Origin: Phorcus lineatus
Lineage: Eukaryota; Mollusca; Gastropoda; Trochida; Trochidae
Direction of reading: 5' to 3'
Assembly: GCA_921293015.1 (NCBI GenBank)
Contig: OV121090.1
Span: 15,035,304-15,099,303, forward strand
DNA length: 64,000 nt
Shown here: positions 10,386 through 49,431 of the stretch, one piece after another
Numbering within the stretch: the first letter of the stretch is position 1
Layout: every line of letters begins with the position of its first letter
Translations under genes and position numbers: made by a program
Notes under the pieces: generated by a model
What the model saw: only the letters and a program-made list of their open reading frames with translations
What the model was told of the DNA's origin: nothing
Databases searched by the model: none

Positions 10386-10738
10386 CATTCCCGGGAAGCC
10401 GGTGACTGCTAAAATGAGATTAAAGATCGACTGAAATGGCAACTTTCGTGATTCATAAAATAGGTATTCTAATTTGCCAATATCTTGACTTTAAATTTTC
10501 GAAATCGGCCCATAAACAACTTTAATACGTCTTTTTCGAATCACCAGCTAATTAGCACCAGTGAACAGAACTGAACTGGCCAGTGGTCACCGAGGCGTGT
10601 CTTGCCGCGTTTCCTACCGCGTGACGTGCTAGTTGGCGGAAATATAACCTTCTTAATGAAAAAACAACAGTCTTAACAACTGTTTAAACATATCTAAAGT
10701 CATCCAAACAACTCAAACCTCCGATAAATTGATGTTTA

Positions 10739-10980
10739 TGATGATGATGATGATGATGAGGTTGATGAGATGAGATTTTACAAGCACTTCCAGCACAGCT
10801 GAATTCGCACTTGGGTCCGTTAGGACCTTTAGTAAATTTATGTTTAACGTGATGTTTAATATATCTTTTATTATTTGTATTGTTCCAATGATGATGATAA
10901 TAATGAGGTTCGAGATTTTACAAGCGCTTCCAGCACAGCTGATTTCTTACTTGTGTCCGTTTGGACCTTTTGTAAAGTTC
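10739..10980 (-). repeat. Duplicated LINE 3' end
   Basis: Two copies of about 90-100 bp, each with a GAT-rich run, then GAGATTTTACAAGC(A/G)CTTCCAG, CACAGCTGA and GTCCGTT(A/T)GGACCTTT, start near 10739 and 10891. The block is the LINE's terminal UTR with its tail, repeated in tandem. Confidence 0.75.
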
Positions 10981-11134
10981 CGAAATTGTTTAAAAAGTGG
11001 TAAATTTTGAGCCAAGTGCCAAAAGGGGTAATTTTGAAATTTTGAATGATATTTTTAGTAGAGAGGGGGAGAAGGAAGGGGGCCGGGGATGGGGGAGGGT
11101 GGGGGTTAATTTATGGTATATGATTGTGAGGTAT

Positions 11135-14100
11135 TTAGATATGAGCCAGAAGGTCCGTATCTTTGATGTATTTGCCTAGAGCATGGAATATTTGTGGTTT
11201 GTTGTGTGGGTTGACGATGTGTTGTATGTTGTGTTGGTTGATGTTGTGTTGTGAGAGAGTAGTCTTTATGGTTTTGCGGTGTGTATTGTAGTGTGCACAT
11301 TGTGTCAGTATATGGATGATTGTTTCTGTTTGTTTGTAGCGTGGACATGTGGGATGCTTGTGTCTGGTCTGTTGTGTTTTTGCGTTTAGTTGTATGTGTC
11401 CTGTTTGTAGTTTCGTGATTGCCCTATCTATGTTTGTGTTTTTGCTGTATGTTTTGAATTTAGTGAGTGGTTTGGGGGAGAAGTGTTTTGGTGTGTTTAG
11501 CAATAGTAGAATTAGTGTATTGTTTATGCCATACGGCCCTGATGTGTAGTTTAGCGAGGCTTTTAACCTCTTGTTTAGAGTGTGGGAGTGGATGTGTATT
11601 GGTATCTAGTTTTAGGCCCTCTTTTGCTGCTCTGTCGGCTATTTCGTTGCCGAAAACGCCGACGTGAGCAGGAACCCAGAGGAGTTTTATGGTTTTACCC
11701 TGATGGTAGTTGTATAGTGTTTAGTATTTGAGATATAATGCCAGGGCAGTTTTTGGTAGATTTAGATTTAAGTGCTTCCAGCCCACTAAGTGAGTCTGAA
11801 AGGATTAAAATTCTAGGATGGTTGAATATATTTGATTTTGAAGAGCTACCAAAATAGCCATAAGTTCCACCGTGAAGATGGATTGGTCATTAGGCAGCTT
11901 GTGTGATGTGGGTGTGTGGTGTGTGTTCTGTATGTGGTAGCCGAAGGCTGTGGTGGGTGCCTCAGGATCCGTCGGTGTATATGTGGCACCAATCGTGCCA
12001 GTTGTCTTGTATGTATTGAAGTGTAGTTGATCTAGCGTGTAGTGGGTTGTGTTTGCTTGTGATTTTGGTTAGATGCAGGTTAATGCGGGGTGGTGGGAGT
12101 TGCGAGTGTGAAGTATTGTAGGATGTTGTTTTGTGGGAGTGAGATGTGGTTGAGATTTGCTTGTTTGATAAGGTTTATGATGAGTAGAGATATTGGAGAT
12201 GTGAGAGGGTATTTGTTTGCATATGCCGTTTTGTGTTTAGATAGTTTAGAGTTTAGGAGATTGGAAATTAGTGTATCATCCGAAGAAGCGGCCCAGAAGT
12301 TTAAGGTGAGTTGGTCCCTTCTGAGTTTGAAGGGTATTTCACCAGTTAGGGCTTGAAGCGCTTCATGGGAGGTCTCATGTTGTATGCGTGTTGCTAGTTT
12401 AAGTGATTGGTATTGTATAGAATTAAGCTAAGCAGTAAGTTTGGTGTTGAGAGTATTATAAATGGGGGCGCCGTAGTCCAATTTGGACCTAATAAGTGAT
12501 ATATATAGGTTGATAAGGGTTTGCTTATTTGCACCCCAGCTTGTGCCAGAGGTGGCACGCAGGACATTAAGGTCCTTTGTGCACCTAGTGATTAGATCTT
12601 TGATGTGGGCATCCCATGAGAGATGTTCGTCAAAGATTAGCCCTAGAAATTTGGTTTGTTTTAGGAAATTTATTTTGTTATTTTTAAGATATAAGTTTGG
12701 GGAAATAGGGCGCATTTTTAATGTTTAAATACTACTCCAGTGGCTTTTCCGCGTTTAGTTTAAGTCCCCATCAGTCGGCCCATTTTTCGACCTTATTTAA
12801 TGCGGACTGGAGTAGTTTTGAAGAAGTTTTAATATTATTACAACGGACCCAGAGCGCACCATCGTCTGCAAATTTGGAAGTATTTACTTTTTACTTGAGA
12901 TTCCCTCGAAGAGGTCGTCTACCATTATGTTAAAAAGAGTAGGGCTAAGGATGCTGCCTTGTGGGGTGCCATTTTTGAGGGGGAAATTTTCCGAAAGTTG
13001 GTTGTCGACCCAGACAGTTATTTGCCTATTGTGTAGGAAATCCTGAATGAAATTAATTATGTTGTCGTTTAGGCCTTTAATTAGTAGTTTATGGATTAGG
13101 CCATTATCAAAAGCTTTGGAAAAATCCAGGAAGATTGCTAATGTGTAATGTTGGTGTATTTGCCCGTTTTTATTTCTTGCTCGAGGCGAGCAAGATTGTT
13201 TAGGGTAGAGGGACCTGGAGTGAAGCCACTCTGGTTCCTCTTTAATGGGTGAATTTTTAGGTGGTGCTGTAGGCAATTTTTTACCATCGCTTCCTTTACC
13301 TTACATAGATTAAAGGCTAGAGAGATAGGCCTATAAGAATTTGGATCCCAAGAGGGTTTATTTGGGTTAGGGATTGGTATGATTAGTGCTTTCTTCCAGG
13401 AGGAGGGAAGTGTGCCTAATTGCCAAATGAGGTTATAGAGGTTAAGAAGTATGTTGGTGGTATTTGGAGGTAGCTTCTTAATTAGTTGGTAGGAAGTTTG
13501 GTCCAGGCCAGGAGCCGTACCATTTTTTACCAACAAATTGAAGCTCCTCCATTGTGAATGGTTGGTTGATGGGTTGGTTGTTGTTTTGTTGTTTAGGTGG
13601 TATAGGAAAATTTTGCTTGTTTTGTTGGAATTTTTGCTTGTTGTTGTTGTTGCTACTAGCATTAGCAAACTGCTCTGCCAGAACGTTTGCCTTTAATTTA
13701 GGTGTGGTGTGGTTATTTATAGGTAGGAGTTTACTTCTGCATTTGCCGCCACGAATGACTCAGAGCTTATTCCAAACTTGTTTAGAGTTTGTTTTACTAT
13801 TCAGCTCCTCACAGAAGTTTTCCCAGTGTTGTTTCTTTGTTTCTTTAATGAGTGTTTGAACTGCATTTTCTAGGTGTTTTGCATGTGGTAGGTGAGAAAT
13901 GTCGCGTTTTGCTTTGTTAAAAGCTGTTTTGCGTAGTTTGCACACTGTTTTTATTTCCTCAGTCAACCAGGGTACTGAGGCTTTATAGGGTTTAGGATTA
14001 GTTAATGGATTAGATGGTTTGGCAGCATTTATAATAGCTTGCAGGAATTTGTTGCAAAAAATTTGGGGGTCGTTATTTTCAAGGTCTGCTGGTTTTAGGA

Positions 14101-14860
14101 GTTCACAAAGATTTTGGAGTTTATCCAAGTCAGCCTTGTTGTAGGAGATTTTGGGGGCAATTTTTATCCTGAGTTTTATTTGGAAGGAAGTGGTTTAGAG
14201 TGATAAAAATAGGGAAATGATCACTTCTCCACGGATCATCGAAGATCGCCCATTCGATCTGGCTAACAATGTCCGGGGTGCTGATCGTTAAATCGATTGA
14301 GGACATTCCTTGATGTCCCCAAGCGTACCTAGTTGGAGAGTTTTGATTATGTAGTACATAATCATTATTTATGATCCAGTCGTCGATTAGTTCTCCGCTT
14401 CTCGGCCTTATCTTTACAGCCCCACAAGGGGTGATGGGAGTTAAAATCACCCAAAAACTTTGTGTGATTAGGGGATAAATTTTGTAGGTCCTCTCTTTGA
14501 AATTTTTGAGTAACCCTTTGATAGATATTATAAATAGTTAGATTTTGGTTTTTATGTGTTATGGTTATGGCTTATGCCTCTAAGTTAGGAGTATTTACCG
14601 GAAAGATATTATAATTTAAATCTTCCTGGATAAAAATTGCTAGACCTCCATGTGCTCGACCAGGATTGGTTTTGGGCCGGTCGTGTCGTAGCGTTTTATA
14701 CCCAGGAATGTTATATTTAGAGCGAGGGCCGAAATGGGTTTACTGAATGCTTATGATTTGGGGGTTAAGTTTTTGGAGTTTGATTAGAGCTTTAAGCTCG
14801 TGGCCGTGAGCCGAAAGGCCCCAAGCATTCCGCTGTAGAATTTGCATAATGAGAAGAATT
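11135..14860 (-). pseudogene. I-like LINE ORF2: endonuclease, reverse transcriptase, RNase H, zinc knuckle
   Basis: Endonuclease start near 14850 (NAWGLSAHGHELKALIKL, GGLAIFIQEDL) and its end at 14130-14450 (SSIDLTISTPDIV, DPWRSDHFPIFITL). RT at 12730-13668: GTAPGLDQ, FLDFSKAFDNGLIHKLL, NGTPQGSILSPTLFNIMVDD and KFADDGALW near 12870. Thumb-like piece at 12428-12715 (FLGLIFDEHLSWDAHI). RNase H at about 11580-11900 (SIFTVELMAILVALQNQ, LILSDSLSGLEALKSK, LLWVPAHVGVFGNEIADRA). Zinc knuckle at 11135-11503 (CPRYKQTETIIHILTQCAHY). The reading is split into at least seven frames by stops and frame changes, so the copy is dead. An ORF1 is not recognised. Confidence 0.85.
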
Positions 14861-16170
14861 AATAGTGGAGAAAATTGGAAAAGGCATATAGGTTTCAGCT
14901 GCATGTTTGGTTTATATAGAATTGTAAGTGGAGAAGTGTTGGTTTAGGTTTTTAATCCTGGAGGAGTTCCTCCAAGAGTTAGTTAAATGTGGATGGTGAG
15001 CGCTGCTGTGATGAATGTTGCGATTGCAAGATTTTGAGGGATTTTAGTTTTTGGGCTGTTGGGAATTGTTCTAAGCGAAAGACAGTGTTTTAATATGATG
15101 CTATGCGCACTATCCCATAGCATGTGTAGATCAATTACGACATCTGCCATATGTTGTCACAACAATCAGACTGGTTTTACTGGTCTTATTCTTTTATGAC
15201 ACACAGGTGGCCGTTATGTAATCCTATCGCATTCAATTTAAATTCTTGATTTAATGGTCTTTAATTATACCTTTTGAAATTTCACGCCTTGGACCCACCA
15301 TGTGGAATATATGTCCTGTCATAATGGCGTAACTCTTGGCATTCGACTGCTACTTGGTTTATTGTCACGGCGTCCAGTCATTTTGAACCAATGAATTTGT
15401 AGAATATATATTCAACCAATAAATTAAGAGAAGTAGATTTGGCTTATGCACTTCTACCGACGATGACACTCATTTAAAAAAAAGTACATCGTTAATAACG
15501 TGTACCAACATTTTTTAGGATTACATAGGATGTTTCTCACGCTTGCGCCAGGTATGTTTTCATGCCATTGATTGTTAAGTTCAAAGACAGAGATATTGCA
15601 ATACGATGTGGGATGTTATACTAGATAACAATATATTATATGTTAGTTAAATACAAACGAATTATCCACTAAGTACAAAGTTGTCATGAAAGTGAAGTGA
15701 AAGAAAATAATTTTATCTAAAGTAAACATTAATTTTTTTTGTATGTAAACCCACCCAAGAAAACCGCGTCAAAGGATTGTCACAGTCCAATCAAAATAGA
15801 TTTGACGACTGAGAAGGAAAGTTGATATCATCTAGCAGATACATATCCTATTTAGGAATTCTTTCGGTCATGCTATTGCCTCTATTTTGGTGTTGAATTA
15901 GCTTAAAAATACAGAGAAAATCAAAAGCCTGGAGTTTCAGCTGACCACTAGCACGTTACACACTGGGCGTGACTTCGAGTCATGCTTCGATGATTTTGTC
16001 TAAGCGTTGGCGGTCTCATTAGGCGGTTATCCAAAACAGGGGTATAAAAGGTCTCTTAGTAGTCTAATTAAAGCGTATATATTCTCATTTTTTGGCTCTA
16101 TTGATTCTTATAAGTGAAGGAATACAGATAATAATTTGTAATAATCAAAAGTATGCGTTACGTCTCCTCT
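14861..16170. other. Right non-coding part of the second TTAA element
   Basis: The first part near 14861-15060 may still be LINE 5' UTR. The rest has no coding similarity, only the CGTGCTAGT-type block near 15945 mirrored at 10630 and the AGA terminus at 16170. Confidence 0.45.
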
Positions 16171-16807
16171 TTAAACGGAGCCCTGATACCAATTATAGTA
16201 ACGGTTCCTTCACAACATGAGCTAAGACCCCCACCAGTCTGAAAGTAAGCCTTTGTTTTCTGAAATTATGCTTATTGATGTACAAATATTGATTTATACA
16301 GACTCAATATAGATCGAAGAGTATCTCATGCAAACTTTTCATCAATTGACAGTTTGTATAAGTGAGAGGGTTTTGATTTGTTGACAATCTCAGTCAAATT
16401 TTCATGTTTTCGTCGCATTTCTGCTTCGGAAAGTCACTGTGCATCTAATTCTTCCTATCAATCTACCGTTCTGTTACCCAGATAAAGTTTGAAATGCACA
16501 TATATTAATTCTAAAGCTTTAAAACAGAAATATCAGCATGCAACATTTCACAAATGGTTACGCATTTGACATGAGATAAAATCCTGACTGTTGCGAATAT
16601 AAACGGAGGATGCGCTAACACGAGGAGGACAATATCTATCTAATATCTCTTTAGTTTTCATTTATGACAAGTGCACGTAATAAGTGATAAATTTGCAGCT
16701 GGAATTACTCGAAATATCAGCTTTGGAAGGCAGTGTCAATGACATAACATAAAAAATTGGAGCATAAAATATATATGTCGCGAGGGGGCCTGAGACATCA
16801 TTCTGCT

Positions 16808-16887
16808 GTTAAACATTCAATAAGTCCTGTCAAATGCCATCAATGTGAGATGAAATTTCATCATTACCTTACAACCCACCTAAATGG
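16808..16887 (+). pseudogene. C2H2 zinc-finger coding remnant in copy A
   Basis: The frame reads KHSISPVKCHQCEMKFHH then YLTTHLNG, a C-x2-C...H type zinc finger. The same finger occurs in copy B at about 47998-48050 on the minus strand (VKCHQCEMEFPHN). Copy B keeps a longer upstream stretch that copy A has lost after the CATAACATA motif near 16750. Confidence 0.55.
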
Positions 16888-17033
16888 TAATCTAAACCTT
16901 TAAGGCACGACAGCATGGTTTTTCGGTTCAATTTGGCTATTTTAAGGCATTTGAGGGTAAAGGCACTCACTATAGCTTTCTACTGGTGCAATGAAGTGCT
17001 TACTATCCTTTACAATTGACCTGTAATCAATAA

Positions 17034-17992
17034 TGGGGCACAGAGTACAATTTATGTTGGTTGGGTCAAATATGTCAAACTTCATAAATGGTGTTATTTC
17101 ATCGACAAGTAGTGGTAGTTTCTTAAAATAAACATCGCAATGCTTATCAGTTAGGATGGTGACAATAAACAGGGGAAAAAGTCTAAATTAATGATCGAAA
17201 ACCGGACAATGGCGCGCGCCAATGATTCAAGCGAAATCTCGGAAACTTAGAAGACATAACAAGAAATATATGTTTTTATTACTCATATGGTTTATCATAA
17301 GCGGGGACATATTTTCAATATGAGCACATGTGCACATATCACTTTTGCCTAGCAACGATTGTTTCAGCGCGAATGATCTTATTTTGTCGTAAAACCATTG
17401 TTCATGACGTCAATGTAGCGGGCCGACGCAAAGGAAGGAGACCGTTTTCTGAATATTTCCATGCGTTTAAAATGGAATAGAATCGGTAATAAAGAAATTA
17501 TTACCCTCGGAAGTGTTTCATATGACTTTTACGAAACTCGTGCGAATTAGTGTATTACCCTCGCTCTCGCTCGGGTAATAAAAAAATTCACACTCGTTTC
17601 GTAAAAATCATATGACACACTTCCTTGGGTAATAATCTCTATATATTGATCAGAAGATCATTTAACTAACACAGTTGTACATTGGACGCAGAATTCCAAC
17701 TTCTTAACATTCATATGTCCGTTTATAATTTACAGTCGAAATCAAGAAAATGTCATAATGTTGGCATTTAAGAGATAATATGCAACTTAAAGGGGCATGC
17801 ACATAGTATGATGTTAAGGTCAAACATGTAAAACTCTATAAATGGTGTTATTTTATTCAGGAAAAAAGTGTCTGTTTCAGAAAATCCGCATCCTTCATTT
17901 TATATTGTAAGAGTAATAAGCATTGTGATTTTTTATCGAAAATCGGACAGTGGCGCGCACCTATATCTCAAACGTAATTTTGAAAACTAATT
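17034..17992 (+). repeat. Internal direct duplication within copy A
   Basis: Segments at about 17034-17258 and 17795-17992 are diverged copies in the same orientation. Both run through CATAAATGGTGTTATTT or a close variant, a TTTCTGAAA-like block, an AAGCATTG-like block and TCGAAAAYCGGACARTGGCG. Copy B shows the same pair, so the duplication is older than the split of A and B. Confidence 0.65.
17273..17643. mobile_element. Small insertion with a foldback core, absent from copy B
   Basis: Copy B reads straight from AACAAGAAATATAAG into ATATTGATCAGAAGATC (47415-47440, reverse), whereas copy A has about 370 bp between the same flanks. The insert ends in a near-perfect foldback: arms 17497-17560 and 17573-17636, 64 bases each, around TCGCTCTCGCTC. 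Arm ends are ATTATTACCC. No coding sequence. Confidence 0.75.
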
Positions 17993-18595
17993 TCGGTATT
18001 TTAGAGATAAAGATTCAAGTTTAGATAGGCGATTTGTACTTATCTCAGGACATTAATTTTTTTCATACCTCATAAAAAATTATAAAACATACCCTGTGTC
18101 ACCTTAAGATAGGCGATTTGAGCTTATACCTTAGTTTAATGGCTCTATCTAAACCACATACAAAACTAATGAAACATACTCTGTGTCAATTTAAGATATA
18201 GAAAATCTGTAGTCAGGGGTGTACAAAATGGGAAAAACTATGGACAATTAAAAACGGATAAAGAATTTATGTGTGCAGCTTTTGAATATAAACCTTAACT
18301 CTGAACTGAAAGTAAAGGATATCAATCTTGTAATTTAGACAATTTTGAAAAAGCTATGGAAGCATCGCTACTGGATTAATATAGCGTCTTCCGTTTTCGC
18401 TCTTCGGGCTGTAAGCAAAATTTGAATATTGCCGATATCGTAGTTCATGCGTCTTTAATGCAACAATTCAATTATTTGGTCATTTGAAATCAACTTCATA
18501 GCCTGAATACGTACATATTACACGTACACGTACACCTTACGAGGTAGATTACCTAAGTGACGATCGTAAGTAATATCGAGAGATAGGCGTGATCT

Positions 18596-18853
18596 TTGCA
18601 TTCGTTGTATAGACAAAATATGACGTACACCAGAGCTTTAAAACCCTACCGTTGCTTAGCATGCAAACAACATTACCAGGGAGTCTCTACGCGCACACGA
18701 AAAGGTTTGCTATGGCGCAGATTGGTGTGTGAACTTTGTTGGCGTTGCTTTAGTCATGTACGTTCACTGCAGGACCATAAATGTTGCCGCCAAACACATC
18801 GGCCTTCCACGCTAACGCCTGTGGGAAAAAAAGATGCAGCGATGTGCTTTTAG
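18596..18853 (+). pseudogene. C2H2 zinc-finger coding piece in copy A
   Basis: 85 codons open, starting MHSLYRQNMTYTRALKPYRC. Visible Cys/His pairs: CLAC near residue 21, then CELC near residue 46 with spacing to DH and TH (CELC-x12-H-x6-H), a C2H2-type finger. The C-terminal LTPVGKKDAAMCF has no recognised motif. Copy B contains the same coding stretch on the minus strand near 46070-46310 (CELC...LQDHVADKH), broken there by stops and frame changes. The true start is unclear, since a related finger lies 1.7 kb upstream and introns are possible. Either the element's own DNA-binding protein or a captured host exon. Confidence 0.5.
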
Positions 18854-20943
18854 CAGCTGATTTATCAAGGATACATGTACATCATATCCAAGTAGTTCTG
18901 CTTTGCTTTTGAACTTGCAGTCATAATTGTGTTTTTAGTTCCGTTGGTTAAGAAAAATCAAAGCAACATTATAGAGAACATTTGCAATTATTTTCAGTTT
19001 TGTTTAACTTAACAGTTATTATCGATTTATTATTTCTCGATTTTCCTTCCATGAAGCCTACCATGTTCATTTGTATTTTGAGTTTACATTCAGTAATCAA
19101 TATGTAACAATAAATCGTTTCTTGAAGCTTCCTTTTACAGAAAACATATATTATCGTATCATGATTAATTTCATTTCCTAATTATCTTGTAAATTAATGT
19201 ACCTATTATAAATACGAGTACGCCTATCTATATCTTTATTTCCGTACTTAAAATGCCACAGGCCTGTGGTACATTCATGGGTAGATCACATTATTTGTTT
19301 TTACATTATTTCTTCTAAATAACATTGCATAATAAATATACATTGCGAGAATCTGTCAATGACAATAGTTTTGTTCTATCTGGGTATTTATAAAAGTATG
19401 GTTTAAGATTATTAAGTGCGTAGACTTCGATAGATAGGGAAGATTAAGAGGAAGTGTAGCTCATCTTCCACGGCTTTCATATCACAAATTTTACATATTA
19501 ATTTTTTCTTCTTCCAACACTCACACATCTACCTGTTTAAAAAAAAATTCATGAGATGAACAACGAAAACGGAATAAAGCACTACGGAACGTTTTCACAT
19601 CAACTTTTGATAGATAACTTTCAAGGCATATTTCAGATTTCCATTGCCTATAATACAGACATTTAGTTGATAATGACATTGATTCTGTCCAGGATTGTAA
19701 GCGTATATCTTTCATTCTTTGTGTTATTGAAAAGATAAAATCTGATTAAAAATGTTTATTCGATTTGTTTGTACAATTTCAACCTAAAATCCATTCTCAT
19801 TTTTATTTCAATCAGCTTGTTCGGAAAAAATTAATTTCATTTCTTGAATAAAAGGTGCATGTTTTTCCTTATTCTTTGGAATAAAAGAGAATCAGAATAT
19901 GAAACGTTCGAACTGTTTATATACTTTAACTTCCCGACTGTTTAGTCTTACCATACACTCTAGTGCAGTTTGTACTAGAAACTGATGATACTAATACAGA
20001 ACAGTTGTATCAGTCTTGTTGCGACAACGACGTTGAGAAAGTATTGCTCACCTTCAACGATTAACAACTTTGTTACATGCATATGCAATTAATACGATAC
20101 TGGAACCATTACGTGGCTGTGAAATAATAACATTTTGCAACGTAAATTCGAAGACATTTTGAATTCAAATCATCCAATAATGTTATTTCTTTGATGGGCA
20201 TGGTTGGTTTTTGACAATTTCAACAAAACCACGGGTAAGAGAAATTGTATTTCCTTTAAAGCAGAAAAATCTGTTTTACTTAAATCATCCATGTCTTCTT
20301 CGCAGATATCACAGATATCACTTCAATCTGCAGATGCTGTCGTGTAATGGTCTCTCGAAAAAATGATCCGATTCTTTTTAACTTTCACACTTATCAACAA
20401 GATAGCAAAGTTTACTGTTCTTAAGCTTAACTGTTATTTCATAACTAACAGGGACATTTTGTTCAATAAACTAAATGGTTTTATATGATGAAGTTTCCCC
20501 CTTAAGATAACGTACTTCCTGCTCACTATGCTAATTAACAAATTGATGTATTGCTTGTGTTTGATTGCCATGATGTTTTCCACAAAAATAACAATTACAG
20601 AATGTTCTGTAACGCAAGATAAAAAAAGTTAATGAAATAAGTGATCCTGTAAAGTTCGTAACAGTTCACTTTAAACTCTGTTTATATTCGTAACACTCCT
20701 CTTTAAAACTCGTAACATCCGAATACTCTTTGAAATAACTTTGTCTTGTAAAAGAAGTGTTTGGACACTATTTTTACTACTGAATCATAGGATAACGTAT
20801 TTTTATTTAAATGTCCGTCACTACTGAGAACGAAAACATTAATTAGATTTAAAAAATTGACTTATTTCCACCCTAACTACACAAAACCATTTAATGTTGG
20901 AGAAAAGCTAAGGTATTTTATTCACAATACAAATCAACATATT
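18854..20943. other. Non-coding right half of copy A
   Basis: AT-rich and matched almost throughout by copy B in reverse. It includes a subterminal cluster at about 20655-20720 with repeated TTCGTAACA and TTTATATTCGTAAC motifs, mirrored near 16588 at the other end. No protein recognised. Confidence 0.6.
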
Positions 20944-21439
20944 CATTGCAACATATGAAATACCTTTTTACAAGATCAGATTCTAATCACATTCATGTTA
21001 ATTCCGCCGATAACCTACGCCTGTCGGCTTCCTAGCCCCGGCAGTGATGTAACAACTACTAAAAATAGTATCAGGGCTCCGTTTAATCTCATTTTAGCAG
21101 TAACCAGCTCTCCGGGAGTGTGCATACCTCATCTTCTTAAACTTGATGTTTTCAATGGATTTTGATTCCCTTTTCCGTTTACTGGGTTTATTCCACTCAC
21201 ATGGTTTAGATGTGCACGGTACCTCACTATCGGCATCATTGCAACATATGAAATACTTTTTTACAAGATCAGATTCTAATCACATTCATGTTTATTCCGC
21301 CGATAACCTACGCCTGTCGGCTTCCTAGCTCCGGCAGTGATGTAACAACTACTAAAAATAGTATCAGGGCTCCGTTTAATCTCATTTTAGCAGTAACCAG
21401 CTCTCCGGGAGTGTGCATACCTCATCTTCTTAAACTTGA
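20944..21439 (+). repeat. 293-bp tandem duplication spanning the right end of copy A
   Basis: Segment 20944-21146 recurs at 21237-21439 with only a few differences. It holds the last ~175 bp of copy A including the TIR, plus TGCATACCTCATCTTCTTAA of the flank. The 90 bp between the copies (21147-21236) carries the YqaJ-like coding piece. The second copy runs straight into the Gypsy-type fossil, so the duplication seems to predate that insertion. Confidence 0.8.
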
Positions 21440-22723
21440 CATTCCAAACACCCACTCAACCATGGCAATGGTTGCTACAGACTTGTTTGAGTTCAACAAA
21501 CAGAATTACATTGTGATAGTTGATTACTACTCCAACTACCCTGAAGTGATCTCCATCAACAGTCAAACAGGTTCATCACTAATCAAAACTCTAAAATCTA
21601 CATTTGCAAGACATGGCATCCCTAACAAACTAGTGAGTGACAATGGTCCATGCTATGCATCAGCTGAATTCGAAATGGTCAGTCAAGATTTGGGTTTCAC
21701 ACACGTCACGTCAAGCCCTAGATATCCACAGTCAAATGGACTTGCTGAAAGAACTGTGCAGACCATATTGAAGAAATGCAAGCACAGTGGTGAAGACCTT
21801 CTCCTCGGGTTACTTTCATACAGAAGTACCCCTCCTTCTCACCCAGCTCAACTACTCATGGGACGGCGGATACAGTGCAACCTGCCAGCAACAACAAAAG
21901 CTCTAAAACCTAAAATACTACCTAGAGACAATATCCTCCAACAGAAAGAAGCTCTGAAGGAAAAGCAGAAAACCTACTATGATCGAAGGGCGAGACAGGA
22001 AGAGCTTCCTCACCTCGACGCAGGTACAACAGTGCGCATACAAGACAGCGACAAGCTCCAAGGTGAAGTCCTGAAGGAAGTAGCACACAGATCATACCTT
22101 GTCAAGACTGACATGGGTAATGTGATGAGAAGAAATCGTCGCGACCTACTTGCAACGCCAACAACAACGTCACCACCATCGTCTGATCAGGCGATCAGCG
22201 ACAACGCCCCGTCTACCACTGAAAAGACTGACTATGCAGCAAGCAGTAGAGTGACGAGAATTGGTTGCTCAGTGATGGCGCCTAGGAGGCTGATCGAAGA
22301 GAAATAATGACTTTTAACTGTTCATGTTTCCATTAATAGTTTCGTTAATGTTCACTGTTTTAACAAGGACAGTTAACTACTTTTATCCAGCTGTGAATAA
22401 TTTCATGCTTATTCTAGATTCAAGTTTTATTCTTCTAAAGTTCTAAATCAGTACCAATTCAAGTTAAGACATGGACTGAGTAATTCTTATCTCACTTTTC
22501 ATTCTAAGGGGAAAGATGTAACGTAATGTGTCAACAGACGCTCATGTCTTAATTCATATATATCTAAAAGTTGCTTCTAACAGTATCAACCAATAGCATC
22601 AAGGGGAATAGCTCTCATTACTTCCTGTTGCTGCATGCCATGTGCTTTGAGTCAGCACTGAGTGTAACTGTCCAGAATAAACAAGCTTTTTAACACAGAA
22701 GCTATGTTTGTTCATATATTACA
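21440..22723 (+). mobile_element. Gypsy-type LTR retrotransposon fossil: integrase end plus 3' LTR
   Basis: Fossil of the Ty3/Gypsy family, strongly 5'-truncated, so it is broken; only the 3' part is present. The integrase core is recognisable (ATDLFEFN, VDYYSNYPE, LVSDNGPCY, SPRYPQSNGLAERTVQ) and ends near 22307. A purine tract (about 22506-22516) precedes a 207-bp LTR (22517-22723) that begins TGTAACG, ends ATTACA and holds an AATAAA signal. No 5' LTR, gag, protease or RT is in the window. The coding part is still well kept, which suggests a moderately young insertion into the YqaJ-like gene. Confidence 0.85.
22517..22723 (+). repeat. Solo-side 3' LTR of the Gypsy-type fossil
   Basis: TG...CA ends, purine tract directly upstream, polyadenylation signal near 22677. 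Its 5' partner is not in the window. Confidence 0.75.
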
Positions 22724-31639: not shown

Positions 31640-34600
31640 TCTTTATTTCAGTACGTGTGGCCTCCGGCCCATATACAGGTTACAGTGAGCAGGTTGGATA
31701 ATCTTATAACAATTGTCGTCTTAGACGTAATGCATGATGGGTATATAACTGTAGAGCTTTTATAACATTCACTTTACAAGATGCCATTAAATTGATGAAG
31801 CTAGTTTTTAAGTTATATGAGGTACAAATAAATGGTAAATATTTAAATCTAAGTTTCCTAAATGCTGGACACATCATAACAAAATGAAATTCATCTTCAA
31901 CCATATTTAAATCACATACTTTACACAACCTCATTGTTTTGATAACATTACAATATCGCCCAAGTTCAACTTGCAATCTGGCCATGCCAATACGCAGTTT
32001 TGTCATATCACGACGGTAAAGAGAGCAATCACCATTAGTTAAGTATATTTCTGGTTGTAAATTTAATTTAAAAGATGAATAACATTCATATCTACTACTA
32101 ACTGCATTGTAAGGTAGAATTCCATTCCTGAGTTAAGACATCAGTAACCCGTTGCTTGAATTCTGCCAAAAACAATTCAACACTGCCAACACCTTGAAAT
32201 ATCCAGACGTAGCCAAAGCCATAACTATACAAGACGGATATCGATGAGCAGGCATGCGAATAACTCTGAGCCAAAATTTAATGCACCTCATCAAAGAGGT
32301 CAAGTATACAGGCAATCTGCCACATTCGCCCATAACTAAAACGTTTGGAGCCCTTTTACCAATATTAAGAAAACGTTTACAAGCCAAAGTATGTACTCTC
32401 TCTATGCTCTCCATACGTTGGAAGCCCCACAACTCCGAGCCATATAACAAGATGGGCATAATCTGCAGATCAAATATTGTAAAAAATACCTTGTAGGAAA
32501 ACTGTCCATAAGAATACATAGTCTTCAGAACTTCAAAAAGTGCTTTCTTGGCTTTTATAGCAATATAATTACAACTTTGAGAAAAACTAAGTTTACTTGT
32601 CAAGACCATACCTAGATAATTATAACTAGTAGCTACATTAACATTACTTCCACAATCTGTCCATTTCTCGAAACGAGACAACCTTCCCCCTTTTCTAAAG
32701 ACCATTATTTTAGTTTTTGACATATTAACTGTTAAGTCCCATGATCCACAGTAATTTTGAAGAATATCAAGCCGCTTTTGTAAACTATTAACACTATCTG
32801 CAACAAGAATTACATCATCCGCGAAAAGAAGCAAGAAAATTTCAATGAGGTCAGGATACAACTGAATACCTCTGCTGTCCGAATGAATCATTTCCTCTGC
32901 CAACTCATTAATGAATAAGGAAAACAATACAGGACTCAAGACACAGCCTTGCCTAACTCCATTCGGACACTCAAAGAAATCAGAAAACCCTTCATTTGTC
33001 TTAACACAGGATCTAAAAGCACTGTACATACTCTTAACACTTTCGAATAACCTTCCCTTCAGACCAATTTTATGAAGAAGTAACAACAGCTTATTTCTAT
33101 TGACAATATCAAAGGCCTTTTTGAAGTCTACAAAAGCTACATAAAGTCTACCCCTGTTCTTTGATAAATACTTTTGCACAAGTGCGCATAAAATAAAAAG
33201 ATTATCAGCCGTAGCATAACCGGCTCTGAAACCAGACTGGGATTCTGAAATAAGTGACTCATCATTAGCCCATTTAGTTATCCTACTGTTAAGTATTCCA
33301 ATATATATTTTACTAAAGATTGATAATAATGTTATGCCTCTATAATTATCTGTGCAGTCACGAGGACCTCCTTTGTGCAGCGGAACAATGATACCCTCTG
33401 ACCACTTTGAAGGGAAAACACCTGTAGCGTAAATAATATTGAACAATTTAACCATGTAGTTTATCAAAAATTGATTTCCATATAAAAACATCTCTGCCAA
33501 AAGTTTATCAGTACCTGCCGATTTACCAGACTGTATAACCTCATCCTCACCTATAGGACAATCAAACCGCTCGCACACATCCTCACTATCAACGACACCT
33601 GTACCCGAGTAACTCTCACGCTCCTCGACAGAGATGTCAATTTCACCTGACACACTCCCAGCGACGTTATATAACCTAGTGAAATGAGCAAACCAGTCTG
33701 CACGTGAAATCGGTGCAGGGACAGACCTCTTACGCATACGTCTTAAACAGGACCAAAATAGACAGATGATCTTTATTTGAGGCTGATATACATAATTTAT
33801 CCACCTCTTTCTTATTAAATGCCTGTTTTTTATCTTTAACTGTTGACTTATAATTATTCAAGACGAATTTATACTGAATGTAAGTATGGTGAGATTTACA
33901 GTTTCTATGTCGCCTGAGCAACCTTCTACTATTCAACTTTAGATTATAACATTCTTTGTCATACCATAAATTTTTAACATGTTTGTATTTACAAATTGAA
34001 GGTTTGAGAAAACGTTTTGATGCATCACAAATAACATTATTAAACATTACTATAGATGAATCAATGTTGGTATGAAGCATATCAATAGCATTGTTTATAG
34101 CAGACAATGATTCATCACATGACAGATTGTTCAGATATACATCCACATTCGATTCATCCCAGACATATTTATCAGTCTCTGTATGTACAGTATTTAACTC
34201 TAGAGTACCTGTAGAAAATGTCACTGGTAGATGTTTAGACTCTGATCTGTTTACAAGCTTAAACTCGTGGATAGCGGATAACAGTTCAGAGGATGCAATG
34301 CAATAATCAATTGCACTTGCACCGGTTTCACAAAAGAACGTGAATTTACCAGTAGATGTGGACATTCGACCGTTGAAAATAGATATATTAAGCGTCTGGC
34401 ACAGTTCCAAAAGAGAATGACCAAACTGGTTGACATTGTTGTCCTCGTTTGTTCTCAGTGTTGATAATCCATCGTTGAAAATATCATCTTCTTCAACATG
34501 CCTGTTTGGTTCAATATAATCAAGCAATTGTCCAGTCCTAGAGTTAAAGTCACCACATAACAATATTGGAGGGTCTGATTTAACTTTTTGTAATATATCC

Positions 34601-35050
34601 AAAATAAATTCTTCCAACATAATTATTCCATTTTTGATAACACTTTCATTGTAAAACGATGCATACCTAGGTGGAATGTACAAAAATCCTAGTAAAATGT
34701 CATTTTCAACACCAAACAAGTGCTTGTCAACTATAAAGAATACACCCAAATGACATTGATAGATACAAGTGAAATATTTAACGATATTTGTCCTAATAAA
34801 TACAGTTATTCCACCACAATAACGACCCTTGTCATAAAACCTGGTAGCTTTCTGAGTAAAGCATTTATAGTCCCCAAAACTTGGGTAGTTAATATCTTTC
34901 TCCGTCCATGTCTCAAGGAGAGCAATAACACTATATTGTAATATAAAATCAATGAAATCTACATCATCTAATTTTGACATTAAACCCTCAATGTTCCAAA
35001 TTATATAATCACATTTTACGGCATTAGTACACAAGCCTTGACCACACCCC
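31640..35050 (-). mobile_element. Near-intact CR1/jockey-like LINE
   Basis: Minus-strand LINE of about 3.4 kb with endonuclease, RT and C-terminal zinc region in order, and a 3' end with the GGGCC...GGCC motif and AATAAA (about 31645-31690). Only two coding lesions are visible, making it the best-preserved LINE in the window. The 5' UTR and 5' limit are not certain, and no ORF1 is seen upstream to 35600. Confidence 0.85.
31704..35034 (-). pseudogene. LINE ORF2: endonuclease, reverse transcriptase, zinc region
   Basis: Endonuclease in 35034-33730: IIWNIEGLMSKL, ILLCGDFNSRTGQLLDYI, SAIDYCIASSELL, ESKHLPVTF. RT in 33737-32133: SAGTDKLLAEM, IIVPLHKGGPRDCTDNYRGI, VAFVDFKKAFDIVNRNKLL, GVRQGCVLSPVLFSLFINEL, LLFADDVILVAD with the catalytic Asp pair, YNYLGMVLTSKLSF, MGECGRLPVYL. 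C-terminal zinc-type segment in 32006-31704: LCKVCDLNMVEDEFHFVMMC. The endonuclease and RT frames overlap by 8 bases and are offset by one base. RT and zinc segment are in the same frame, separated by one TAA at 32133-32135. Everything else is open over about 1,100 codons. Confidence 0.88.
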
Positions 35051-35960: not shown

Positions 35961-35997
35961 ACTGGAAAGGATCTAAACAGAGAACAGTGAATCAAAG

Positions 35998-36220: not shown

Positions 36221-36309
36221 TGTTTTTAAATTTGTGGGCCCATGTCAAGATATAAGAAATTCTACTTTAATGGCAATTCTATGGAAACTGTTAATGCATA
36301 TACATATTT

Positions 36310-41581: not shown

Positions 41582-41608
41582 ATTCAAAAAATGATGCGTG
41601 ATATTCAA

Positions 41609-42250
41609 AAGTATGTTAACAGTTTCATATGAATATATATCTGCTTGAGAAAGAACTATATTGAAGTCAGTCTTCGCACGAAGTACACAAGCTGACCTTT
41701 GACCTTACGAGAAACGTGGAGTAAATATTTTCTTGGGAAGTGTTAATTAAGTCACTTTTTTTTACATACAGTTGAACGAACGTGATAATTATGATGTCAA
41801 CTTACATCGAGGCTTGAAAACGTTCAGTAGTTCATCTTCTATGAAGAGATATATGGGCGTTTAGCGAGAGCCAAATTGAAGCACGACTCACATGTCGCCA
41901 ACCAAGGGAGGCAATTAACACTTGATAACACTATGGAACAATGATTTGACATGTTGCAAGGGACATGTTAAAGGGGATCACAAACCCAAGCTGAATCTGT
42001 TAGCAGCGTCTACTACTTATGATTGGGAAAAAAGCAGCAGAGTATTGACAATACTAATATGTAAATATAGTCGCAAGCGACGACAAAAGGATTCAGCGCA
42101 TAAAAAGCACATTCAGTACAAAGATAGTGATGTTAGCTAGCTTCACTGAAAATTTCATGAAGATTGATGCACACATTAAGCTTCAGGGGCATGTTTTACC
42201 TGAAAATTGCGATAATTGCAAAGAAGTTGATAATGTGCAAAAAGAATGCT
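41609..42250. other. Spacer between the L1-like LINE and the 42-43 kb repeats
   Basis: Likely LINE 5' UTR at first, then unassigned sequence. An AAAGGATTCAGCG at 42087 resembles half of the hairpin at 43373. Confidence 0.4.
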
Positions 42251-42257
42251 ACTTAGG

Positions 42258-43330
42258 AATTCGCCGTGATTTGCTTTTTTGCTCGTGATGTAATTGCCTA
42301 TCGTTTAAAACAACTTACAGGTCTCCAAGTGCATTTTGAAAAAAATGTCCCATGTTAATTTTTCGAAATTTGGATCGTACTGTGCCTTTAAGGCTTAAGC
42401 CGATTAAGCCCAAAAGCTTATTGTGGCTTCGTCTCATGCAGTTCTATCAGACTGGTAACTTTGGCTGAAATAGCTTGAGCGGTTTTGGCTGAATCGTGTT
42501 AACAAGAATCGTCGAATCATGACAAGCAATTTCTGGAACAAATAAGTTGATATTGTGCAAAAACTATAATAGTTATGAAATCGTCATGATTGACTTTTTT
42601 GTTCATACTGTTATTACGCTTCATTCAAAACAAGTTTCAGGTCTCTAAGTGCATTTTGAAAAAATTGCCCATGTTATTTTTTTGTAACCATATTTTTGAT
42701 GTTTTTGATCGTTTATTGTGAACAAAATTGACTGTTCGCGATCAATGTTTTAACAGTTTCTGTAAGTGAACATACTGGTCTTACATTCCTGAAAAAATAT
42801 TGCAATTGTGAGTCTAACTTTTAGAGTTATCTTCCTTTGAACATGCTTATATGAGCTATGTCGCCCGACTTTGAAGGGTTGCTGAGAAAAAAGTTTTAAT
42901 GTTAGGACCTTGAAAAATATAAATTCAAAATTACAATGCTTCAGCTACATTGAGTATGAATTTCAGCTCTTAGATGCAAGTATCTTCAGAGAAGAAGATT
43001 CTCAAAGATGCATGGGGTCCGTAAATTTCAAAAAGTTAATTAAAGCAATATGGCGGCCAAACTGCTGATGCTACGAATTTGCCATGATTGACTTTTTTGC
43101 TTACAATGTTACTGTGCATCGTTTAAAAAAAGTTGCAAGTCTCTAAGTGCATTTTGAAAGTTTTTCCCATGTTAATTTTTCGAACTTTGGAGGGTACTGT
43201 GCCTTTAATGCTTAAGCCGATTAAGCCCAAAAGCTTATTGCGGCTTCGTCTCATGAAGCTCTACAAGACTGGTAAGTTTGGCTTTAATAGCTTGAGCGGT
43301 TTTGGTTAAATCGCGGCGACAAAATCGGTG
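42258..43330 (+). repeat. Three diverged direct repeats
   Basis: Blocks starting near 42258, 42576 and 43072 share TGCTTTTTTGCTC-like, CTCTAAGTGCATTTTGAAA and CCCATGTTAATTTTT. The first and third continue for about 250 bp through AAGCCGATTAAGCCC, CAAAAGCTTATTG and GGCTTCGTCTCATG to TAGCTTGAGCGGTTTTGG. No coding sequence. Likely the body of an unnamed repeat family. Confidence 0.7.
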
Positions 43331-43372
43331 GAATAAAAAAAAAAATAATAATAAAACACGCCAATAACAATA

Positions 43373-43403
43373 AGGATTCAGCAAAATTGCTGAATCCTTA
43401 ATA
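43373..43403. repeat. Perfect hairpin at the end of the repeat block
   Basis: 13-bp perfect inverted arms AAGGATTCAGCAA and TTGCTGAATCCTT around two A bases, preceded by an A-rich stretch with AATAATAATAAAAC. It looks like the terminal stem-loop of the repeat family to its left. Confidence 0.75.
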
Positions 43404-44769
43404 AAGTTATTAGCTAATTTAATTGCAGTTTAAAGATGTTCCGAACGTTTGTCAGTGCGCATCTTTTCGCGCATCCGAAAAAGTGCCGCTAACAAACTCA
43501 AGTTGTGTAAACGTTGTAGAAAAAATGACACTGAGGCTCTATCGATGTTCGGAAATAAATGAAATTTTAACTGTGGAATGATGAGTTGTCTATTATTCCA
43601 TCCATGCACCTTTGGTCATAGATTTTAAGAATCACATGCATATGCATTGGTCATAATCGGCAGAGATGTTCTGACACAATTGTTGGTAATAATTAGATTG
43701 CGGCTTTCCAAAATGTACTCCAATTATTATTTTGCAACAGAGAAAATGTCACTGATAACTTTTATGTGTTTACATTCGGCATAAAACCGATTGTTAATGA
43801 AAAAATACAAGTTATCCCTTGCAATCACTTTGTTGAACATTGTTGAAATGACGTCATTGACACACGAGGTGCGGAAAAATAGACTGTGTATGGAAGGTCC
43901 TCGTAATTTTTCACAATATATGACTAGTAACGGAACATTTATGTACTAAGAAATACTTTTCCATCTTGGAAATGATGTAACTTGTAGAAAAATTAGAACA
44001 GAATATTAAGTTACCCTCATTAGGCCGTAAACAGTAGCAGTTTCCGTAAGTAAAATCCTATTTTGAATAGCTCAATGAAAATGAAGAGTTACCTCCCCTT
44101 ATGAGTTTGTTCATAAGTAATTTAACTTCAGCTTCAAATATCTCGGAAGATAGGTCCGTGACATATCTTTTTTGTTTCAAATTATTTCTTTTCAATATGT
44201 TTTATTCTATCTAAAACAAATTTGAATTATTTTTCATTTATTTTTTATTACTGAACGCGTCTTTTGAAGCTATTTTTGTAAAGATCATCATCGAAATTGT
44301 ATCTTTAATATTTGCAGATAAGTTACAAAAGACAAAAAAAGAAATACGAGACATCAATTTTCTATTACATAATCATCTCATTAATTGGGAAAAAAGTAAA
44401 CTGAACTCTAAATGTTTTTATTTTTTGTTTTAAGATTAAATAAGCAAAATTGGACATTTCCCCATTTTATTAAACAAACCCTCAAAAATCATAATTTCTC
44501 TGAAAAGGAAGGTCCGTGACATGACTTTTTTATTTTTGAATATTGAAGAATACATATTCAACTTTCACCATGCAAATTTACAGCAATTATTCATTTATTT
44601 TGTTTATTGGTACGAACCTCTTTAACTCAATCGAACAAATAACCAAGTTTGTTGATGTATTCGATGTAATCTAGGCACAGTTTTGAACTGACGAACACCA
44701 TTATTTCCTTCTTCTGGGGGCCCAGCTTGTACTTAGCAATGTTTAAATTTGGTCCAACCAGTCCTTGCC
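43404..44769. other. Unassigned AT-rich stretch
   Basis: No gene, element end or tandem repeat recognised. GGTCCGTGACAT recurs at 44153 and 44511. Confidence 0.45.
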
Positions 44770-46059
44770 CAATCCCGGGAAGGTGGTTACTGCTAAAATG
44801 AGATTACAGGGAGCCCTGATACTATTTTTAGTAGTTGTTACATCACTGCCGGAGCTAGGTAGCCGACAGGTGTAGGTTATCGGCGGCATAAACATGAATG
44901 TGATTAGAGTCTGAACTTGTGAACAAGTTGAACCATTTCATATTTTGTAATGAATATATTGATTTGTATTGTGAATAAAATACCTTAGCTTTTCTCTAAC
45001 ATTAAATGGTTTTGTGTAGTTATGGTGGAAATAAGTCAATTTTTGTAATCTAATTAATGTTTTCGTTCTCAGTAGTGACGGACATGTAAATAAAAATACG
45101 TTATCTTATGATTCAGTAGTAAAAATAGTGTCCAAACACTTCTTTTACAAGACAAAGTTATTTCAAAGAGTATTCGGATGTTACGAACTTTAAAGAGGAG
45201 TGCTACGAATATAAACGGAGTTTAAAGTGAACTGTTACGAACTTTACAGGATCACTTATTTCATTAACTTTTTTATCTTGCGTTACAGAACATCTGTAAA
45301 TGATATTATTGTAGAACACATCATTTCAATCAAACACAAGCAATAAATCACTGTGTTGCTTAGCATAGTCAACAACCAACCATGTCCATCAAAGAAATAA
45401 CATTATTGGATGATTTGAATTCAAAATTTCTTCGAAATTATGTTGCAAAATGTTATTATTTCACAGCCACGTAATGGTTTCAGTATCGTTTCAGTATCGT
45501 ATTTATTGCATATGCATGTAACAAAGTTGTTAATCGTTGAAGCTGACCAAAACTTTCTCAACGTCGTGGTCGCAACAAGACTGATACAATGGTATCATCA
45601 GTTTCTAGTACAAACCGCACTAGAGTGTATGGTAGGGCTAAACATTCTAATTCTCCTTTGTTCCTTTTATCACAGAAAAATAGGACGCACACATTGAAAA
45701 AAAATTCCGAACAAGCAGATTGAATGAAAAATGATAATGGTATTTAGGTTGAAATTGTACAAAGAAATCGAATAGACACGTGCAATATGAAGTCATATTA
45801 AATTATTGGTCTTTTCTTGTAAATAAGATTGTAAAAAGATTTTGGTTTTGAATCAACAAAATTCCTGACATTCTTGTAACTTTGATTGGTGAACGTACTC
45901 GTATTTATTATAGTTACATTAATTTACAAGATAATTAGGAAATGAAATTAATCATGGGACGGATAATTATATGTTTTCTGTAAAAAAAAGCTTAAAAAAA
46001 GAACGCAGAACTACTTTAAGATGTTATTAGGATATGATGTATCCTTGATAAAACAGCTG

Positions 46060-46315
46060 CTTGAAGCATATCGTTGCATTTGGTGATAGCGTGGAAGGCC
46101 GTTGTATGTTTGTCGGCAACATGGTCTTGCAATGGACTTGCATAATTAAAGCAACACTAACACAGTTCACACACCAATCTGTCGCCATTGAAAACCTTTC
46201 CTTGTGTGCGTAAAGTCGTGACTCCCTGGTAATGTTGTTTGCATGTTGTTTAACGGTAGGGTTTTAAAGCATTATTGTACGCCATATTTCGTCTATACAA
46301 CGAATGAAAAGATCA
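46060..46315 (-). pseudogene. Zinc-finger coding remnant in copy B (C-terminal finger)
   Basis: Counterpart of 18596-18853 in copy A: ALKPYR, then CKQHYQGV, then LVCELC...LQDHVADKH, a C-x2-C-x12-H-x4-H finger. Here it is broken by stops and small frame changes. Conservation of the finger spacing in both copies suggests it was once a functional protein. Confidence 0.5.
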
Positions 46316-47997
46316 TTCGTATATATCGATATTACTTACGATCGTCACTCAGGTAATCTACCTCTTTAAACAATATGTACGTATTCAGGTTATGATTTTG
46401 ATTTCAGATAACCGGAAGTATTCTTTGAATTGTTGCAATAAAGCCGCATGAACTACGATATCGGAAATATTCAAATTTTGCTTACAGCCAGAAGAGCGAA
46501 AACGGCTGACGGTCTCTTAATCCAGTAACAATGCTTATATAGCTTTTTCAAAAGTGTCTAAATTACAAGATTGATAAACAATAATTCATCCTTTATTCTC
46601 GGTTCAGAGTTAAGGTATAATCAAAAGCTGCATACATAACTTCCTTAGCCGTTTTTAATTGTCCATATTTTTTTCCAATTTTGTACACCACTGACTATAG
46701 AATCTTTAATTGATACAGAGTATGTTTCATTAATTTTGTAAGTGGTTTAGATAGAGCCAAAATATCATTAGACTGAGGTAAGATCAAATTGCCTATCTAA
46801 AAGTGACACAGGGTATTTTTATAATTTTTTATGAGGTATGACAAAAATACAAAATACCAAAGATGTCCTGGGATAAGTTCAAATCGCATATCTAAACTTG
46901 AATCTTTATCTCTAAAATACCGAAATCATGACATTTACTATTTTCAAAAATAGTCGGAAAACAGCCATATCATTGTTAATAAGTCGAATATCTGCGCCCC
47001 CTATAAATAAACATTAGTTAAATGATCTACTGAACACTTCCAACCCATCTTTTCCTTTGTGTCTGATGTAAATTAGTTTTCAAAATTACGTTTGAGATAT
47101 TGGTGCGCGCCACTGTCAGGTTTTCGATAAAAAATCACAATGTTTATCACTCTAAAATATAAAATGAAGGATGCTGATTTTCTGAAACAGACAATTTTTT
47201 CTGAATAAAATAACACCATTTATAGAGTTTTACATGTTTGACCTTAACAACATACTATGTGCATGTCCCTTTAAGTTGCATATTAACTCTTAAATGCCAA
47301 CACAATGACATTTTCTTGTTTTCGACTGTAAATTATAAACGGCCATATACATATTAAGAAGTCGAAATTCTGCTTCCAATGTACATCTATGTTAGTTAAA
47401 TGATCTTCTGATCAATATAAACTTATATTTCTTGTTATGTCTTCTTTAAATAAGGTTCCATAATTTCGCTTGAGTCATTGGCGGGCGCCATTGTCCGGTT
47501 TTCGATCATTAATTTTGACTTTTCCCCATAATTATTTTCACTATCCTAACTGATAAGCAATACGACGTTTATTTTCAGAAACTACCACTACTTGTCGATG
47601 AAATAAGACAATTCATGAAGTTTGACATATTTGATCCAAACACCATAGTACATTGTACTCTGTGCCCCATTATTGATTACAGGTCAATTGTAAAGGATTA
47701 TAAGCATTTCATTGCACCAGTAGAAAGCTACAGTGAGTGCAATACCCTTAAATGCATTAGCATAGCCAAATTGAACTAAAAAATCTGCCTTTAAGGTTTA
47801 GATGACCATTTAGGTAGGTTGTAAGGTTATGATAGTCAATTAGACAATATGACAATTAGACTCTGAAATGAAAATGTATCAGTTAATCGAAAAATTTTAA
47901 AAATATTAAATGAAATGAAAAGGAGAATCAAGCTCTAATGTCTTTTTATATACTTGCTAAGGCTTCTACCTTATTTCAGGGTCTGGCCTACAGACTA

Positions 47998-48400
47998 AGG
48001 TTATGAGGAAATTCCATCTCACATTGATGGCATTTGACAGGAAATATTGAATGTTTAAGAGCAGAATAAAGTCACAGATCTCCTCGCGACATATGTTTTA
48101 TGCTACAATTTTTCGAAAACATGACCACCTTTGTGTTCCCCTTGCTCATGGTCAAGTTTGTTTGCTTCAGTTTTCTTACAAATTTATTACAGGTTTGGCG
48201 ACATACACTTGGCCTATATCATTCAAATTGTATTATGTTTGGTTTTATAGAAGCAGCCAGGAAATGTGCAGGAGTTGGTTCTCTGTCCATCTTATTCGGT
48301 TTCATTAGGGTGCTGGTTGCTAGATTGCTTTCTAATTTTTCAATGGGTTTGTCATATTCGTTTCACATTTCATGCTCTAGGCTTTGGTATGTTATGTCAT
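47998..48400 (-). pseudogene. Zinc-finger coding remnant in copy B (N-terminal part)
   Basis: One frame stays readable for about 400 bases with three stops: NEYDKPIEKLESNLATSTLM, REPTPAHFLAASIKPNIIQF, then VCRQTCNKFVRKLKQTNLTM and HSIFPVKCHQCEMEFPHNL. It has two Cys-pair clusters of C2H2 character. Copy A retains only the last of these at 16808-16887. Confidence 0.5.
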
Positions 48401-49431
48401 GGACACTGCCCCCCAAAGCTAATATTTCGAGTAATTCCATCTGAAAATGTATCACTTATTACGTGCACTTGTCATAAATGAAAACTAAAGAGATATTAGA
48501 TAGATATTGTCCTCCGTTTGTTAGCGTAACATCCTCCGTTTATATTCGTAACATTCAGGATTTTATCTCATGTTAACTGCCTAACCATTTGTGAAATGTT
48601 GCATGCGGATATTTCTGTTTTTAAGCTTTAAAATTAATATATGTGCATTTCAAACTTTAACTGGGTATCGGAACGGTAGATTGATAGGAAGGAAGAATTA
48701 CTAGTAGCTGCATTGTGACTTTCCAAAGCAGAAATGCAACGAAAAGATGAATATTTGACCGAGATTTTCAACAAATCAATCCCTTCTAACTTATACAAAC
48801 AGTCAATTAATGACAAGTTTGCATGACATATTCTTCGATCTATATTGAGTATTTATCAATCAATATTTATACATCAATAAGCATAATTTCAGAAAACAAA
48901 CGCTTACTCTCATATTGGTTTGGGTCTTAGCTCATAATGTGAAGTAACCGTTAGTATAATTAGTATCAGGGCTCCGTTTAATCTCATTTTAGCAGTAACC
49001 GGCTTCCCGGGAGTGATTCATGTTGTTGTTTCATTTGTTCAATACATAGGAAATTCCTAGGATTCAAGGATTGGAACAGATTAAAAGAAGCAAATCAAAT
49101 AGATCCTGGAGCTTGTTGATTAATCTGGTGATGTCGAAAATTAAGGAGTAAGTGTCTGGGGAATGAGCAACCATGGGAATTTGGGCACCGCATCAACTCA
49201 ATATTTCTTTTTGTTAAATTTTAAGTGATGTTTATCACTTTTGTCAGTGTAAAAATATTTACACATTTTCACAAAATCATCAATAAAAATACTCCATTTA
49301 TAAATGATATATCCTAATATCATAGCTCAAGTATACGACTCATAATTTGATGGGAATCAGTTGGTTAATGGAATAAATTCATCGTTAATGTGGTTAAAAA
49401 CCAAATAAGACAAAAGAAACTAGTTCAATGT

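Follow-up and report, generated by a model that had tools for sequence, protein, structure and literature searches.

Copies A and B, two large inverted elements in the genome of Phorcus lineatus, are best read as decayed members of a family of cut-and-paste DNA transposons that is very probably non-autonomous (probability about 0.8). The family has terminal inverted repeats (TIRs), is dispersed through the genome and is flanked in half of its complete copies by exact 5-bp target duplications. The kind of element is known, but the family is new and its resident gene, which codes for C2H2 zinc fingers, is unusual. Going by titles and the starts of abstracts, none of the papers listed in searches of the open literature describes the family (subscription journals and Repbase lie outside this scope). 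The window analysed here, i.e. the whole stretch of 64,000 nucleotides, is C16:15035304-15099303 in a 958-Mb genome of 74 contigs, and positions given without a contig or locus are counted from its first letter.

Structure of the two copies

A search for inverted repeats of at least 60 nt returned 25 pairs, of which 22 link A (16171-21417) with B (44766-48981); complementarity was 81-96% in 22 pairs and 72-75% in three. The two copies are inverted relative to each other and 23.3 kb apart, which confirms the preliminary description of two inverted copies separated by about 24 kb and having common termini. Family termini read CACTCCCGGGAAGCCGGTTACTG... and were found in the window at 10386, 21120, 21413, 44770 and 49015 (Table 1). 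The second end of A is duplicated, and the terminal C of its CAC occurs twice, 293 bases apart, with part of the flanking DNA repeated too. The whole extent of A is 10386-21413, including an outer tip that a nested insertion separates from the main body. No target duplication is visible at B, and by eye the flanks of A and B are different.

Table 1. Positions of copies A and B and of the features within them (window coordinates)
Feature	Position	Strand	Remarks
Outer 38 bp of one A TIR (CATTCCCGGGAAG...GAGATTAA)	10386..10423	+	Severed from A by nested insertion
Nested TTAA-flanked repeat element in A's TIR, holding LINE frames	10420..16174		Relatives' boundaries and Pfam matches
Reverse transcriptase frame (RVT_1) in nested element	12884-13692	minus
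Endonuclease frame (Exo_endo_phos_2) in nested element	14130-14537	minus
Copy A, main body	16174..21120	-	Reverse orientation relative to B
A zinc-finger fragment 1	16766..16900	+	tblastn with L061 ORF, 79% amino acid identity, E 5e-18
A zinc-finger fragment 2	18593..18850	+	86 codons open; motif search and tblastn
Extra 293 bp: second copy of A's other TIR end and a little flank	21121..21413	-
Copy B, complete from TIR to TIR	44770..49015	+
B left TIR (77 bp)	44770..44846	+	Terminus mutated to CAATCCC; 84% inverted match to 48939-49015
B zinc-finger fragment 2	46103..46312	-	Two stops; 56% amino acid identity to A fragment 2
B zinc-finger fragment 1	47991..48174	-	Stops and frameshift; tblastn with L061 ORF, E 1e-12
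B right TIR (77 bp) (CACTCCCGGGAAG...)	48939..49015	-

The terminus at 10386 was considered as a third copy and rejected, as it forms A's outer tip, severed by the insertion of 10420-16174. Only 38 bases of it are present before the other repeat starts at 10420. When these are joined to 16174 onward, the alignment is unbroken to the right end of another copy, L043 (217/237, 92%), and to that of B (210/234, 90%). The inserted piece has TTAA at both sides and is a high-copy repeat, with short relatives from which the middle part is missing. Six of its seven relatives besides the window's own were compared (L003 left out; first four pieces per locus listed). In all six the match begins at 10420, stops at about 10722-10736 and starts again at 15065; it extends to 16174-16176 in three, and in one (L005) it also covers 11152-11917 (69%). 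These boundaries, together with the reverse transcriptase and endonuclease frames in the middle, place LINE frames inside a TTAA element that itself lies inside A's terminus. The window thus offers a clear nest of LINE frames in a TTAA element in a TIR element.

A dispersed family with 5-bp target duplications

The preliminary description proposed using the terminus to find further copies and derive the target duplication, and both steps were productive. With up to three mismatches, the 23-base terminus occurs at 53 genomic sites and the 33-base terminus at 47, against none for the reversed-pattern control in either case. Copy B as a genome query gave at least 220 matches (40 of 12,699 candidates scored). 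The loci sampled comprise 20 that were fetched and three further pieces, besides loci from the search with B and from an earlier one that gave the relatives of the nested element. Both ends are present in 12 copies, B among them, and elements without a long later insertion mostly measure about 3.6-5.3 kb end to end. About 163 bp of B (47833-47995), with about 11 bp common to the two edges, are missing from many copies, and L050 has part of this segment. The 22-base piece of the terminus had no exact match in viral_contigs, and a literature search with the letters of the terminus returned, among the matches listed, titles unrelated to transposons.

An exact 5-bp target duplication flanks six of the 12 complete pairs (CACGT, CAATG, TAGCT, GTGTT, TAAAC and AACAG). 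Exact flank matches of 2-4 or 6-9 bp occur in none of the 12, and the 132 cross pairs gave 11 matches at 2 bp, three at 3 bp, one at 4 bp and none at 5 bp. The pairs with no exact 5-bp duplication are L039, L040, L048, L051, B and L041, the last matching at four of five bases. Further, 23 of the 24 ends carry the CAC terminus, the exception being the left end of B (CAA). Comparison of the 500-bp flanks of the 12 pairs revealed no homology from one locus to another, the sole match being that between L051's own two flanks. Dispersed copies with inverted repeats at both ends, target duplications of constant length and unrelated flanks support a TIR transposon family, as had been proposed for A and B.

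In the preliminary description, homology running past both ends in other copies was named as the sign of a segmental duplication; none was found between the 12 complete pairs. L039, L055 and L057 have 17 bases of one flank in common, the latter two standing outside the flank test, and these three are probably part of a larger duplication. All three are near contig ends (C25, C41 and C19), which suggests that end-of-contig segments were exchanged or duplicated. This common flank could be taken to mean that A and B are themselves a segmental duplication and no transposons, and so could their left ends, which are nearest neighbours at a distance of 7.9% (mean 10.1% among 17 copies). At the right end, however, where the mean is 7.9% among 13 copies, A and B are 10.9% apart, a greater distance than A has to nine of the other 11 copies compared (B not counted). 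Given also the different flanks of A and B and the 5-bp duplications at other copies, a segmental duplication is very improbable.

The zinc-finger gene

An antisense C2H2 region lies near the right end of the element in both A and B, as seen by relaxed motif search and tblastn. A strict C2H2 pattern run on the window missed this remnant, and a Pfam scan of 147 stop-to-stop frames of A and B gave a best E of 0.0044, with the zf-C2H2 type at only 0.098; the 86-aa fragment of A had no Pfam match. The resulting view that A and B have no zinc finger was overturned by the looser motif search, by tblastn across copies and by the divergent copy L061. Looser motif matches numbered eight in A, three in B and 2.4 on average in shuffled B, and the motif count alone is weak. 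The C2H2 coding remnant that had been noticed in both copies is therefore real, and it is broken in each. As to whether every copy has it, C2H2 fragments were recovered in 15 of the 20 fetched loci (12 by tblastn across copies, 14 by tblastn with the L061 ORF). L043, L044, L055, L057 and L058 yielded no tblastn fragment; for L055, L057 and L058 the sequence read came mainly from one end, and in L043 56 codons align to the gene at the DNA level. Another 86-aa frame, at L060:3315-3572, was rejected as a C2H2 gene; by eye it resembles a LINE C-terminus, and a matching stretch was found in A (19410-19655) and none in B.

L061 has an open frame of 162 aa (L061:1539-2024, minus strand) with two complete fingers (zf-C2H2 E 4.5e-11, 43 bits against a curated cut-off of 25.2). 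It forms with a sister a divergent pair of direct copies about 4.2 kb apart (C16:32752-32760), the sister having 97% identity over 121 aa and one stop. L061 is decayed itself, its frame departing from that of the family past finger 4. Finger 3 passes into finger 4 via HLNLKPYRC, which resembles the usual finger linker. The stretch of 1.5 kb that separates the two zinc-finger fragments in B is missing in L061, which continues through the break as CCTTAAACCTTACC; A and L021 read CCTT(T/A)AAGGC and then, further on, GCTTTAAAACC. In A and L021 a TTAA-like word stands at both sides of the break and no GT..AG lies exactly there. These features speak for an insertion, made in the main family's ancestor, more than for an intron; L012, with TTCAAAACC instead of TTTAAAACC on the far side of the break, counts against this reading. 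The main family would accordingly have gained the stretch of about 1.5 kb, although L061 may instead have lost it, or shifted splice sites may be in use. Wherever a row of the tblastn with the L061 ORF spans finger 3, that finger is two residues shorter than in L061.

Conservation is higher at zinc-ligand codons, with 166 of 186 cases retained against 716 of 1059 for other codons (position permutation p 0.017; 101 codons, 14 of them ligand codons, in 21 copies). This better conservation suggests past selection on the zinc ligands and is indicative only, the copies being related and the ligand list our own. Mismatches to L061 at the three codon positions number 339, 331 and 421 of 1958 each, a weak third-position excess in a set of 20 sequences that takes the whole window as one and holds one locus twice (L010 and L050). 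Overall, the zinc-finger DNA is not better conserved than the adjoining non-coding DNA. Our reading is that the gene worked once and then decayed as a passenger.

Transposase search and mode of mobilization

The preliminary description recognised no transposase in A or B, and this holds for the frames scanned here. With Pfam, no transposase domain common to copies appeared in 147 frames of the two copies or in 88 of 146 frames from other loci and these (at least 75 aa, 22 loci). The autonomous relative that was to be looked for likewise did not emerge from these frames; the longer copies on C9 (13 kb) and C1 (12.7 kb) were read in part. Matches across the 88 frames were Transposase_1 in one member, RVT_1 in two and a weak Phage_integrase in one. 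Frames in L055 match reverse transcriptase and RNase H, and a tyrosine recombinase weakly and below the cut-off. A 626-aa frame in L047 matched no Pfam family, and the insertion there is DIRS-like by our reading only. Mariner elements make TA duplications, so the mariner-type Transposase_1 of L050 (E 2.6e-23), present in one of the 88 frames, was rejected as partner. Since the frames scanned hold no common transposase, the family is probably non-autonomous, and it probably relied on the transposase of another element.

In its ends, the family resembles Transib, and we class it as a TIR family of unassigned superfamily. ProtoRAG and Transib have 5-bp duplications and CAC-initial, heptamer-like ends, according to excerpts of two papers (PMC8289069, PMC4411706), and the wider CMCT clade has CA..TG termini and 2-5 bp duplications in an excerpt of a third (PMC12730594). 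The family agrees with them in its CAC start and its 5-bp staggered insertion. In contrast, the rest of its heptamer differs, TCCC following CAC (positions 5-7 are CCC) where the excerpts give CACTATG for ProtoRAG and CACAGTG for the RSS. The six duplications have 12 of 30 G+C (40%, n=6) against 35% in the window, so there is no clear GC bias. In addition, the body of the family is mostly non-coding with a C2H2 gene, and the frames scanned contain no transposase of this type; the RAG1 profile PF12940 gave no match and was equally silent on its control. Mobilization by a Transib-type (RAG1-like) transposase is thus a serious candidate at somewhat under even odds. A hAT5-type transposase, from a hAT lineage with 5-bp duplications, is a rather improbable one. 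Elements of the hAT type usually start with CA(G/A), and the family shares the CA and departs at the third base, which is C; no hAT family is among the Pfam matches of the frames scanned. The length of the duplication does fit, since hAT families with 5-bp duplications exist according to the excerpt of PMC12730594.

For a Polinton-like partner the grounds are an integrase ORF (rve, E 2e-10; L059:3396-4334) and a polymerase-like frame, no more than 5 kb away from the C7:21053423 terminus. The polymerase likeness was judged by eye, and Pfam gave nothing. However, judged by eye, a terminus is found within 20 kb of only the C7 and C15 members of the 133 integrase matches, at C15 11 kb off and in the wrong orientation, and from L059:432 onward the sequence is another repeat, with many copies starting exactly there. 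The locus does not hold integrase and polymerase inside termini of its own and was set aside as a nested mosaic, which leaves such a partner extremely improbable. As a separate observation, the stretch L059:3396-4999 is a Polinton-type integrase by eye with 133 genome matches (fragments counted), many of them at 92-96% with open frames, and elements of this type were perhaps recently active; the adjoining frame is polymerase-B-like by eye only.

Source of the zinc-finger gene

The preliminary description suggested a transposon that had captured a zinc-finger gene, and asked for a host source outside the family. That the transposon carries such a gene stands, whereas no close parental host gene is identifiable among the matches listed in two protein searches of the genome. 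With the 162-aa L061 query, family members come first (46-100%) and the best match outside the family, among those listed, is 42% over 81 aa (C12:28358868, an ORF of 450 aa); with a 61-aa two-finger query it is 38%, again among those listed. One of the matches counted with the family (46%) is at C41:14537671, away from any listed terminus.

Capture from a host gene by Pack-type transduplication nevertheless comes close to an even chance, given that the genome has many C2H2 genes, many of them on C15, and that the fingers are of ordinary type. Against it stand the low identities outside the family and the presence of the gene in both the divergent L061 and the main family, so that any capture must be old. 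Pack-type or transduplicating non-autonomous transposons are best known as the Pack-MULEs of plants. Like them, the family is a TIR element that bears gene-like sequence and no transposase; it differs in having the gene in both branches, with no recent genomic source found and with signs of past ligand selection. Similarly, the fungal DNA transposons that carry TET/JBP genes have an accessory gene, but transposases are described for them in the excerpt of PMC12730594, while the family has none found and its cargo is a C2H2 protein.

A more speculative reading, which we consider unlikely, is that the C2H2 gene is the transposon's own long-resident factor, partnering a CAC-end-recognising, Transib-like transposase from a separate element, and that its ligands were kept by selection while the two branches diverged. 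Such a factor could, for example, bind the element ends or counter silencing. Should the gene have served the element, we would have a testable two-component system; should it have been captured, the family would be a route for dispersing DNA-binding domains. To our knowledge, few animal DNA transposons are documented to have kept a transcription-factor-like gene through the history of a family, and, going by titles and the starts of abstracts, none with a C2H2 gene is among the papers listed from the open literature.

Proposed history and neighbouring elements

For the cut-and-paste family that we favour, the following course can be proposed. A transposase encoded elsewhere would have recognised the CAC...GTG ends, excised the element and inserted it at cuts with a 5-bp stagger. 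A working C2H2 gene would once have been part of the element. Two changes in the main family's ancestor presumably broke it, about 1.5 kb entering at a TTAA site and 6 bp being lost from finger 3. The ends may then have gone on amplifying with the broken gene as passenger, and later repeats would have nested in the copies, in A the TTAA element holding LINE frames.

Other elements lie near the two copies in the window. An integrase core frame (21486-22304, plus strand; rve 3.7e-13) directly adjoins A's end; a retroelement may have been the site into which A inserted. Between A and B are long LINE frames (32133-35049, minus strand; RVT_1 6.5e-36 and an endonuclease). Finally, a THAP-domain frame at 6608-7216 (minus strand; Pfam THAP 5.4e-15) possibly comes from a P-type or Kolobok-type transposon.
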